A DNA stretch of 64,000 nucleotides from Acholeplasmataceae bacterium. GTDB lineage: Bacteria; Bacillota_I; Bacilli_A; Acholeplasmatales; Acholeplasmataceae. The notes under the pieces are model-generated. The model made no database searches and was not told the DNA's origin. It saw nothing but the letters and a program-made list of their open reading frames with translations. The stretch spans positions 1-64,000 of the forward strand of contig JAGYNT010000002.1 of assembly GCA_018399615.1 (NCBI GenBank). Direction: 5' to 3'. Shown here piece after piece: positions 47,835 to 55,813 of the stretch (its first letter is position 1; each line of letters opens with the position of its first letter). The translations under genes and the position numbers were made by a program.

Positions 47835-49357
47835 CAGGTATAATCCTCGATCAGGTCCGTATCGATTTCGACGACAAGCGATTCATAGGGGGCGAGCGAA
47901 AGATCACCGTAGATCAGTTCCTCGTACGGAAAATCGAGATCGAACGTATCCGATGACGAAAGATTGTGGATGATCAGGAGTGTCTGGTCGTTGTTTTCAT
48001 CCTGATAGGATCGGATATATCCCTGAATGAACGTATCGTTGTCACGATAAGGGATGAAGTCGTTTCCGTAGCGAAGCGCGACGTGCTCGAGTCTTAAGTG
48101 ATTCATGGTCCGATACGTGTGATAGAGCGAGTTGGCATCGTCCTTTTGCTCGTTCAAAGTGGCCGTGGCGTCATTCTGCGCATCCGGGAACCATGTCGTC
48201 TCGATCTCGGAGTCACCCCAGAGAAACGGCGTACGACGATACTCGTCGTAGGCGACACCGTATCCGGGCACGTTCTGTCCGTCATTTGCGTAATCGCGGT
48301 ATCCTTTCATGCCGAGTTCTTCCCCGTAGTAGATGAAGGGCGAACCGGGAAGTGTCAGAAGAATCCGACTCGCGAGCTTGAGTTTGGCGAGTGAATCATA
48401 GGTTGAAAAACCGGGAGTCGAAGCGAGCCTGTCGAGGTCGTGATTGGTCAGAAACGGTGCGTCGACAAAATAAGGGTCCACTTCCCGGATGCTGTCGTAG
48501 AACCGTTCGAAACTGCGGACGAATAGCGACCTGCTCTCTCCGAGACCGACCTTGTCCTTGATCGTCTTGTAGCCGAAGAAATTATAGACCGAATCGGATC
48601 CGATATAATAATCGGGATAGATGATCTCGCTGTATTCGAACACTTCGGAAACGATGTAGCTGTCGGGATGGTTTTCCGTGATCGACCGATTCAGATCATT
48701 GATGAAAAGCGTGTTCTTAAGGTCGACGCCGACGATGCCGGGCTTGTCGAAAAAGTGCTTGGCGGCATCCAGTCTGAAACCGTGCACACCCATTTCAAGA
48801 TAATAATCCATGATCGTCTTGACTTCGAGAACGACTTCTTCGTTGGCCAGGTTCAAGTCTTTCATCCCGCCGACGAAACTCTCGAAAGCATTTCCGTTAT
48901 CCCAGATATAGAAGTCACGATAAGCGCTTTTCGGGTTTTGCGCACCGACATACCAGGGATGCTGATCCGAGGTATGATTGATGACGAGATCGATCAGAAT
49001 CCTGATGTCGCGGGATTCGGCTTCCGTGATCAGATTCTTGAAATCGTCCATCGTGCCGTAATCCTCGTTGATGCCGTAATAATCGGTGACATCGTATCCG
49101 TGGTAGGATGGTGAGGGATTGATCGGCAGAAGCCAAAGCGCGGTCACACCGAAATCCTCGAGATAATCGAGGTTTTCGGTAATTCCGTTCAAATCGCCGA
49201 TACCATCGCCATCACTGTCGGCGAACGACCGGACGAAAATCTGGTAATACGTATCGTTATGGGGATTGAGATCGCTTTCTTCGGTCGTCTTCTCGTCACA
49301 TCCGACAATGAATATGACCGTTGATAGCACGATCATCGATAAAATCAATTTTCTCAT
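47834..49357 (-). CDS. Surface lipoprotein alpha-amylase (GH13)
   Basis: Lipobox FIVGC; YYQIFVRSFADSDGDGIGDLNGITENLDYLEDFGVTALWLLPINPSPSYHGYDVTDYY; GFRLDAAKHF. Confidence 0.94.
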   Translation of the reverse strand: MRKLILSMIVLSTVIFIVGCDEKTTEESDLNPHNDTYYQIFVRSFADSDGDGIGDLNGITENLDYLEDFGVTALWLLPINPSPSYHGYDVTDYYGINEDYGTMDDFKNLITEAESRDIRILIDLVINHTSDQHPWYVGAQNPKSAYRDFYIWDNGNAFESFVGGMKDLNLANEEVVLEVKTIMDYYLEMGVHGFRLDAAKHFFDKPGIVGVDLKNTLFINDLNRSITENHPDSYIVSEVFEYSEIIYPDYYIGSDSVYNFFGYKTIKDKVGLGESRSLFVRSFERFYDSIREVDPYFVDAPFLTNHDLDRLASTPGFSTYDSLAKLKLASRILLTLPGSPFIYYGEELGMKGYRDYANDGQNVPGYGVAYDEYRRTPFLWGDSEIETTWFPDAQNDATATLNEQKDDANSLYHTYRTMNHLRLEHVALRYGNDFIPYRDNDTFIQGYIRSYQDENNDQTLLIIHNLSSSDTFDLDFPYEELIYGDLSLAPYESLVVEIDTDLIEDYT

Positions 49358-53103: not shown

Positions 53104-53865
53104 GTGGTTGTGGACATGAAAGATCTGACCTGGCTCAAAGAGGACATGATCGCCCATCGCGGCCTTCACACGCACGACAAAAGCGTTCCGGAAAATTCAC
53201 TTCTCGCCTATGAGAAAGCACGTGATCGCGGTTATGCGATCGAACTCGACGTCAACATCCTGAAAGATGGGACGGTCGTCTGTTTCCACGACAAGGACCT
53301 CAAAAGACTCACGGGTGACATAAGAGCCTTGAAAGACGTGACCTATGATGAGATCCGGGATCTCCGGCTTCTCGGCACGGATGAAAAAATCCCACGACTG
53401 GCCGAGGTTCTCGAACTCGTCAAGGGCGAGGTCAACCTCCTGATTGAAATCAAGCCTTTCGGAAAAACACGAAAACTGATCGAAGGCCTCGTGGAAATGC
53501 TTAAGGACTACGACGGTGTTTACGCGATCTTCTCCTTTCATCCCTACGTTCCCTATTATTTGAAAAGGCACTATCCGATGATCGTCCGAGGACAGATCAC
53601 CGAGTACTTCACGGCGAACAGAAAGATGACGAAATTATACAAGTACTTGATGAAATCGATGTTTTTCAATCGGTTTTCCCAGCCCGACTTCATCAGCTAC
53701 GGCATACAAGACCTCCCAAACAGATACGCGACCAAGGCACATGAAAAGGGACTCACGGTCATCAGCTACGCCGCGAGAACCCAGAGTCAACTCGATTTCG
53801 TCAAGGCACACTATGACAACGTCGTCTTCGAATTCTTCGAACCCGCAACGAAAAGAGCACCCTGA
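53104..53865 (+). CDS. Glycerophosphodiester phosphodiesterase family protein
   Basis: MIAHRGLHTHDKSVPENSLLAYEKARDRGYAIELDVNILKDGTVVCFHDKDLKRLTG. Confidence 0.93.
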   Translation: MVVDMKDLTWLKEDMIAHRGLHTHDKSVPENSLLAYEKARDRGYAIELDVNILKDGTVVCFHDKDLKRLTGDIRALKDVTYDEIRDLRLLGTDEKIPRLAEVLELVKGEVNLLIEIKPFGKTRKLIEGLVEMLKDYDGVYAIFSFHPYVPYYLKRHYPMIVRGQITEYFTANRKMTKLYKYLMKSMFFNRFSQPDFISYGIQDLPNRYATKAHEKGLTVISYAARTQSQLDFVKAHYDNVVFEFFEPATKRAP

Positions 53866-53932: not shown

Positions 53933-55813
53933 TCAATCCATGTCGACATCGAAGCTTTCAAGAAGGCCTTTCTTCTCAATCCTGGCGTCACCGTGCTTGA
54001 CGAAATACATCGTGATGAAGGCGGACGCCACGAAAACGGTCGCGTACGGAAAGAGAACGAGCCTTCCGCCGCTGAGCGTATCCATCAGGAAACCGGATAA
54101 GATCGGCGTCACGATCTGAGCGGCCATGCTGAAGGTGTAATAGTACCCGGTGTACTTTCCGACATCGGAACCTTTGGACAGTTCGACGACCATCGGATAG
54201 GAGTTGACGTTGATCGTCGCCCAACCGATCCCGACCAGACCGAAAACGAGATACATGACCCATCCGAGTGATTCGTTCAGGAAACGGACGCTCAGAAACG
54301 AGAGGGATAGGATGACGATTCCGATCAATATCGACTTGCGTCGTCCGATCCTGGTCGAGATGATCCCAATCGGAATGAACGCGATGAGGGCGACACCATG
54401 AGCGATCATGACCGCCAGAGCGGCACCCATGTTCAAGATTTTGGGCGCGTAATCGGCGACTTTCGATACGACGGCGTTATACCCCATGAACCATAGGAAA
54501 ACCGACAACAGAATCAAATAGAGTGAGATACGCTTGCTGCGGGCGAGATCGATCTGTTCCTGTGTTTCGAGCATGTCTTCTTCATCGGTAATGCCGTATT
54601 TCAAGTCGTCTTTGATCTTCTCTTCGACGAGTCTCGGTTCTTTGACTTTCCAGAGAAAGACGACGAGAATGATCAACATGATGATGCCGACGAGAATGAA
54701 CACGGTCGTATAGGATACATAGGAGACTTTATCGGCTTTGGTAATCGCGAGAATCGCGAGTGCGACGATGGCCGCGAGCGATCCCATCAGATTGATGATC
54801 GCATTCGCTTTCGACCGCAACGGTTTCATCGTCGTGTCGGGCATCAGCGCGACAGCGGGCGAACGGAAGACCGACATCGAGATCAGAGCGACGAGCAGGA
54901 TGAACATGAACAAAACGAGGACGAGCGGGTCGCTTACGGTAACTTCCCAGGCACGCGTACTCAGATACGTGTAATAGTTTTCTTTGAGTGGGGCGAACTC
55001 GCGGGGCGAGAACGTCCCGTCTCCGTCGTGATCATCAATGATCTTCGACATCGGTTCGTTGACATCGTCGTTCCACTCATCGTATTGTTTTTGCGTGATC
55101 AGTTCCTGATCGAGCGCATCGGCGCGTTCGTTTTGCATCTGATAGAGGACGATCTGCCAGTGGGCAACCGAATTCTGCCACGCCTCGGAGCCGAGATACG
55201 CATAGTAACTTTCAAGCAGGACTTCGAACTCGCTTTCGACGAAGTATTCCTCGCTGTCGTGATCGCTGATGATTCCCTCGATCGTTGCCAGAGGCCCCGC
55301 GACAAATGCATCGTATGTCTCTTGTGAGATCTTGCCGTCAGCAAGCGCACTCTGTCGTTCCCGGTCCATCAGTTCGGCGATGGTCCCCCAGTGTTCGACC
55401 GACTCGAGTTCGGCATCGGATACCTGGTTCTCGAAATTGAACGCGAACCCGTAATGGACATTGTTGACATCCGTTTCGTTGATCTTGTTCGTCTGGAGAA
55501 TGTCGGCATAGGATAGCGTCATGAAGGCAAAAGCCGCCAATACGGTTCCGACGATGATAAAGGGTGTTCTCCGGCCACGCTTGTGGTTGCTGCGATCGGA
55601 GAGCGCACCGAAAACAGGCAAAAGGATAACCGCGAACATGTTATCCAACGCCATGACGACACCGGACCACGTCTGATTGAGTCCGAACTTGTCGATCAGA
55701 ATTCTCGCAATAATGTTGTCATAGGTTTGCCAGAAGATCGTGATGATGAAAAATGCGAGGCCAACATAAAATGTCTTTTTATAGTCGAGTTTCATATGTT
55801 CTCCCTTGTTCAT
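53933..55813 (-). CDS. MFS transporter (SLC45/GPH-like) with extracytoplasmic tandem EF-hand-like insert
   Basis: TM1-3 (FYVGLAFFIITIFWQTYDNIIARILID; SGVVMALDNMFAVILLPVFGALSDRSNHKRGRRTPFIIVGT), ~185 aa insert, then remaining TMs. Confidence 0.88.
   Translation of the reverse strand: MNKGEHMKLDYKKTFYVGLAFFIITIFWQTYDNIIARILIDKFGLNQTWSGVVMALDNMFAVILLPVFGALSDRSNHKRGRRTPFIIVGTVLAAFAFMTLSYADILQTNKINETDVNNVHYGFAFNFENQVSDAELESVEHWGTIAELMDRERQSALADGKISQETYDAFVAGPLATIEGIISDHDSEEYFVESEFEVLLESYYAYLGSEAWQNSVAHWQIVLYQMQNERADALDQELITQKQYDEWNDDVNEPMSKIIDDHDGDGTFSPREFAPLKENYYTYLSTRAWEVTVSDPLVLVLFMFILLVALISMSVFRSPAVALMPDTTMKPLRSKANAIINLMGSLAAIVALAILAITKADKVSYVSYTTVFILVGIIMLIILVVFLWKVKEPRLVEEKIKDDLKYGITDEEDMLETQEQIDLARSKRISLYLILLSVFLWFMGYNAVVSKVADYAPKILNMGAALAVMIAHGVALIAFIPIGIISTRIGRRKSILIGIVILSLSFLSVRFLNESLGWVMYLVFGLVGIGWATINVNSYPMVVELSKGSDVGKYTGYYYTFSMAAQIVTPILSGFLMDTLSGGRLVLFPYATVFVASAFITMYFVKHGDARIEKKGLLESFDVDMD

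Follow-up and report, generated by a model that had tools for sequence, protein, structure and literature searches.

The 64,000-nucleotide stretch of Acholeplasmataceae DNA analysed here (the window) encodes an MFS transporter with two tandem copies of a helical module in the loop between TM3 and TM4. The subfamily of this transporter carries the module once; it was duplicated in tandem in the lineage of the window, and a separate iteration resulted in three copies in one Izemoplasmatales protein. The protein is best explained as a lineage-specific variant of an SLC45/GPH-like symporter with a duplicated outer module and a putative structural Ca2+ in copy 2, and the probability of this reading is estimated to be about 50%. 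The architecture is real and somewhat unusual, and the EF-hand label given to its domains in the preliminary description is wrong.

Results

The transporter and its fold

The features of the transporter gene are as follows (coordinates in the window, strand in brackets):

53933..55813 (-): MFS transporter of 626 aa (SLC45/GPH-like), 12 TM helices and the TM3-TM4 ectodomain; assigned by MFS_1, AF2 and Foldseek
54926..55504 (-): extracytoplasmic TM3-TM4 ectodomain, aa 104-296; assigned by alignment to relatives, charge bias and AF2 helices
55172..55402 (-): unit copy 1 at aa 138-214, which evolves faster than copy 2 (branch length 2.31 versus 0.22); unit HMM 68 bits
54941..55171 (-): unit copy 2 at aa 215-291, next to TM4 and predicted to fold as a bundle of three helices; unit HMM 92 bits, unit AF2 pLDDT 93.5
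55229..55264 (-): DHDSEEYFVESE, aa 184-195, degenerate counterpart loop of copy 1, which keeps D1, D3, F8, E12 and F13
54998..55033 (-): DHDGDGTFSPRE, aa 261-272, Dx[DN]xDG-type loop joining helix 2 to helix 3 in copy 2; assigned by sequence, motif statistics and AF2

The Pfam family MFS_1 matched the open reading frame in three stretches with an E value of 4.5e-34. Twelve long helices were predicted in the full-length AF2 model (66 sequences; pLDDT 85.7, pTM 0.83). With the HMM match, the 12 TM helices and MFS motif A (DRSNHKRGRRTP) between TM2 and TM3, the protein belongs to the MFS. The top Foldseek matches of the model in the PDB were SLC45A4 and MFSD2A, therefore, the SLC45/GPH affinity proposed earlier is sound; sequence matches to SUC1 and SLC45A4 were also obtained. 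The window protein shares the 12-TM MFS body with SLC45A4, plant SUC1 and MFSD2A, however, these matches leave its TM3-TM4 ectodomain uncovered, and we know of no such ectodomain in the three proteins. A sugar:H+ symport activity is putative and was assigned from weak family matches together with the gene neighbourhood.

The additional helices (aa 116-294) were placed by AF2 between TM3 (83-113) and TM4 (297-327), in accordance with the position first given for the insert. Lysine and arginine were abundant in motif A and the remaining inner loops, and the ectodomain contained 10 K/R versus 41 D/E. Under the standard MFS topology, the contrast between the K/R-rich inner loops and the acidic insert indicates that the insert faces outwards, as had been suggested. 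Helix 3 of copy 2 (270-294) runs into TM4 (297-327) almost unbroken, with a two-residue break between them. The confidence of the full-length model was low for copy 1 (pLDDT 43-80).

The tandem repeat

The two copies were aligned in an exact 77-residue register without gaps, with 37.7% amino acid identity and a BLAST E value of 1.5e-16. The Smith-Waterman score of the pair was 138, far above those of 2000 shuffles (mean 26.6, maximum 49), so the tandem repeat described previously was reproduced together with its coordinates. The DNA of the copies was just 54% identical, which refers to an old duplication and rules out an assembly duplicate or error as the source of the repeat. The unit alone was modelled with AF2 (60 sequences) as a confident three-helix bundle (pLDDT 93.5) with helices at 6-25, 31-51 and 60-81. 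The unit HMM was built from our own rows, and its scores for the included rows, both window copies among them, are circular.

Distribution and copy number of the module

Of 61 genomes from the family and order of the window, 28 contained homologues, mostly 515-557 aa long and with one unit in the same place. Scanning GTDB genomes yielded 80 loci, which belong to Acholeplasmataceae, Izemoplasmatales and related MAGs. According to the HMM, 82 of the 87 proteins had one unit, one (the window protein) had two, one (L065) had three and two had none. The remaining protein, L071, scored as two part-units and reads as a single interrupted unit. Apart from the circular HMM scores, the copy numbers can be read from the alignment by inspection. 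The two-copy form is known from one MAG, which is 67% complete.

The preliminary description knew of no standard MFS architecture of this kind. The insert is not unique to the window protein, as the single-copy module is present family-wide in the Acholeplasmataceae and Izemoplasmatales orthologues with conserved synteny. With one module as the rule in the family, the window protein is less unusual in its architecture than first thought. The preliminary description named a widely annotated insert as a ground for refutation, and this applies in part: the module is family-wide, but it is without annotation in Pfam and NCBIfam. It was also considered as a free-standing domain, and this was rejected: among 346 genomes of the class, the unit profile matched MFS-sized ORFs and a contig-cut paralogue alone.

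In the other, more distant homologues (441-510 aa), the TM3-TM4 loop was almost absent, or shorter and unrelated. Across the subfamily, the length of this loop varied from near zero to 246 aa, therefore, it is a site where the subfamily gains and enlarges an ectodomain. The three-unit protein (L065, Izemoplasmatales STE_77; JAQVKB010000096.1, 679-2697, + strand) is 673 aa long and holds its units in tandem in the TM3-TM4 loop. The Izemoplasmatales-side proteins L064, L066, L067, L068, L073 and L133 have inserts of 150-173 aa, consisting of one clear unit and an N-terminal extension. In some Izemoplasmatales-side inserts, this extension contains a GxxTxxxYW-like motif and may be the decayed remnant of a second unit. 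L130 and L134, both labelled Oscillospiraceae, have a TM3-TM4 ectodomain which is comparable in size and shows no similarity to the unit.

Gene neighbourhood and duplication history

Two neighbouring genes are referred to below:

53104..53865 (+): GDPD (glycerophosphodiester phosphodiesterase), convergent neighbour; Pfam PF03009, E 3.5e-27, and synteny
48002-49357: GH13 amylase lipoprotein, several genes downstream; E 1.4e-83, present near about a dozen orthologous loci

In the transporter tree, the window protein was placed beside the syntenic Acholeplasmataceae clade with moderate support (92/62). The gene order in the window is that of the clade, with leucine-dehydrogenase-like and 2-oxoacid:ferredoxin oxidoreductase genes upstream, and GDPD, two ChrA-type and 5'-nucleotidase genes downstream. 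In 41 of 66 loci, which come from two orders, the GDPD gene and the transporter gene are convergent. A horizontal gain of the insert was ruled out, since the module is ancestral and the genes on either side match those of the orthologous loci. In the unit tree, the window copies (WIN_c1 and WIN_c2) were sisters (93/68) with branches of 2.31 and 0.22, respectively; this placement, derived from about 80 columns, is suggestive only.

A second paralogue group is located between rplM-rpsI and gltX, and a single-unit fragment of it, cut by the contig end, is present in the genome of the window (L052; G000:C121:8929-9846). The GH13 lipoprotein (48002-49357) has a DSDGDGIGD motif of its own. In some relatives, large repeat-bearing surface proteins are encoded directly upstream of the transporter (L079:2-4819 and L104:1-4869), and that of L079 contains Flg_new repeats and a pectate-lyase domain (Pfam).

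EF-hand and dockerin homology

The insert had been described as an EF-hand-like repeat, for which a search with EF-hand and dockerin HMMs and a structure prediction were suggested. The Pfam families EF-hand_5 and EF-hand_7 gave no match on the window ORF even at E<=10, Dockerin_1 gave none anywhere in the whole genome at E<=10, and no EF-hand family was among the 25 families listed for 60 unit rows. The insert itself was matched by neither EF-hand nor dockerin HMMs. In hhalign, the probability of the module against the calmodulin lobes was 0.6%, with a calmodulin profile consisting of two sequences. No PDB fold was matched by the confident unit model in Foldseek (best E 2.5). The structure prediction showed a helix-loop-helix context in copy 2 and brought no match to an EF-hand fold in the PDB.

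The homology of the module to EF-hands or dockerins was thus rejected by the Pfam searches of the protein, the insert and the 60 units, by the genome-level family searches and by hhalign, and the claimed EF-hand domain was abandoned. Within the reach of the tests run, the module does not descend from an EF-hand domain. What it has in common with EF-hand proteins (calmodulin, bacterial EF-hands) and dockerins is a 12-residue D-x-D-x-D-G-x-h-x-x-x-E loop between two helices, whereas no sequence or fold homology to them was detected and the module has no EF-hand pair. A paired second loop of canonical form is absent. A SHOCT-like reading of ERxxxLxxGxISxxxYxxW, which had no Pfam match, was discarded. 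The literature search, with subscription papers mostly outside its coverage, revealed no EF-hand or TM3-TM4 ectodomain in the MFS.

The calcium-type loop

The loops of both copies are 12 residues long and share D1, H2, D3, F8, E12 and the next F, which suggests that the length and half of the ligands probably preceded the duplication. The loop of copy 2 contains EF-type ligands at positions 1, 3, 5 and 12 and Gly at position 6. The Dx[DN]xDG motif with a downstream acidic residue is present in copy 2 (DHDGDG...E) and absent from copy 1, where half of the motif is retained. Both the calcium-loop-like motif and its degenerate counterpart were therefore found as first described. In the AF2 model of copy 2, helix 2 ends at position 1 of the loop, position 7 forms a bridge and helix 3 begins at position 10; this agrees with the register of a calcium loop. 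Compared with the PROSITE EF-hand pattern, the loop of copy 2 has a single mismatch, F at position 8, a residue which is atypical for EF-type loops.

The strict motif, D-x-[DN]-x-[DNS]-G-x-hydrophobic-x3-[DE], occurred in 0.075% and DxDxDG in 0.5% of the shuffles of the acidic insert. At the loop site, the strict motif is expected in 0.16% of sequences according to the family column-frequency model. It was seen in 2 of the 78 inserts, those of the window and L074, versus about 0.13 expected, a rough comparison in which relatedness is ignored. The two proteins sit on distant branches. At the same site, L074, a distant single-copy homologue, has DANTDGIMSEFD (DANTDG), and L142 has DGSTTGTINQID; the segment DGSTTGTINQIDI of L142 fits the PROSITE EF-hand pattern without a mismatch. 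D1, D3 and D5 are absent in most relatives, therefore, neither the fold nor the function of the module depends on the loop. The count of the general loop pattern among the relatives was set aside because it largely reflects the conserved DNIQT stretch ending TM3.

Discussion

Judged by the sequence and the models, the most likely explanation is that a Ca2+ loop has arisen by convergence in a modular ectodomain, which packs onto TM4 and in which Ca2+ would be a structural ion. According to Rigden et al. (PMC3123361), Dx[DN]xDG loops have arisen convergently in a dozen unrelated folds, are mostly extracellular and often structural, and the motif is one nucleotide change away in Asp-rich loops. 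The loop of copy 2 resembles the non-EF-hand examples of that survey in its motif, its position between regular elements, its extracytoplasmic location and its probable convergent origin. It differs in that the word 'transporter' is absent from the survey and the calcium loop of the window protein is putative. The occurrence of the strict motif in the window and L074, with the ligands missing in most relatives, fits the repeated acquisition of such a loop by convergence, at a turn that tolerates it.

An ancestral single three-helix module in the TM3-TM4 loop, outside the cell, was duplicated in tandem in the lineage of the window. The 12-residue loop that joins helix 2 to helix 3 turned into the Dx[DN]xDG calcium type, probably ahead of the duplication, since D1, D3, F8 and E12 are shared by the two copies. 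Copy 2 would hold one Ca2+, pinning the turn between the two helices. As helix 3 is almost continuous with TM4, the ion would stiffen the stalk by which, in this wall-less cell, the ectodomain may be held above the outer opening of the transporter. Copy 1 would be a decayed spacer or extension. With less certainty, the module may act as a cap or docking surface which helps to take up a sugar-like solute, rather than as a Ca2+ sensor. The ectodomain may also be no more than a spacer.

A possible, although tentative, alternative is that the acidic loop is a product of neutral drift in an exposed Asp/Glu-rich turn that binds no specific metal, and that the duplication was a neutral change in the length of a tolerant loop. 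Drift would account for the free variation of the TM3-TM4 loop (almost nothing to 246 aa), the acidity of the whole ectodomain (41 D/E), the restriction of the strict motif to 2 of 78 inserts and its distance of one nucleotide step from Asp-rich loops (PMC3123361). However, the strict motif was seen more often than the roughly calculated 0.13 cases, and the exact 12-residue length of the loops, the D1, D3 and E12 residues shared by the copies and the calcium-loop register are not expected from drift.

MFS transporters with large ectodomains are few. The best-known ones, mammalian PepT1 and PepT2, carry theirs in the TM9-TM10 loop, unlike the TM3-TM4 loop of the window protein, and are read as a case of enzyme recruitment. 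Considering this example, the ectodomain might dock a secreted hydrolase, perhaps the GH13 lipoprotein, and Ca2+ might tune the docking, which we regard as quite unlikely. In PepT1/PepT2 (SLC15), two tandem domain copies in an outer MFS loop, as in the window protein, use acidic residues to recruit trypsin, and transport does not require the domains (PMC4597091). These are, however, Ig-like beta domains that dock trypsin and are not known to carry a calcium loop, and their fold is unrelated to the helical module. The GH13 gene belongs to the conserved neighbourhood at about a dozen loci, but it is non-adjacent to the transporter gene, convergent genes lie between them, and it is missing near many orthologues.

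The Ca2+ site of ferroportin lies in the transmembrane body and not in a loop of such kind. A true EF-hand-derived Ca2+ sensor regulating transport is highly improbable: the canonical-looking 12-residue loop in its helix-loop-helix context and the activation of ferroportin, another MFS protein, by extracellular Ca2+ (PMC6079014) would agree with it, but the module has no EF-hand or dockerin HMM match, a calmodulin hhalign probability of 0.6%, no EF-hand fold in the PDB and no canonical paired loop, the ligands are absent in most homologues, and in ferroportin Ca2+ is a cofactor for the transporter's own conformational change without any ectodomain module.

With the structural Ca2+ in a duplicated outer module as the preferred reading, the remaining interest lies in the countable ectodomain and the likely convergent calcium loop. 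That the MFS subfamily, with its outer ectodomain of 0-3 copies, would have repeatedly gained a convergent Ca2+ loop at a single fixed turn beside TM4, with extracellular Ca2+ regulating the sugar-type transporter allosterically or structurally, is a broader proposal and a rather doubtful one. The bacterial family presents the ectodomain as a countable helical module in 0, 1, 2 and 3 copies, with the intermediates extant in related genomes. It can therefore show how a transporter loop becomes a domain and how the domain is duplicated, as well as the convergent rise of a calcium loop within a known fold context.
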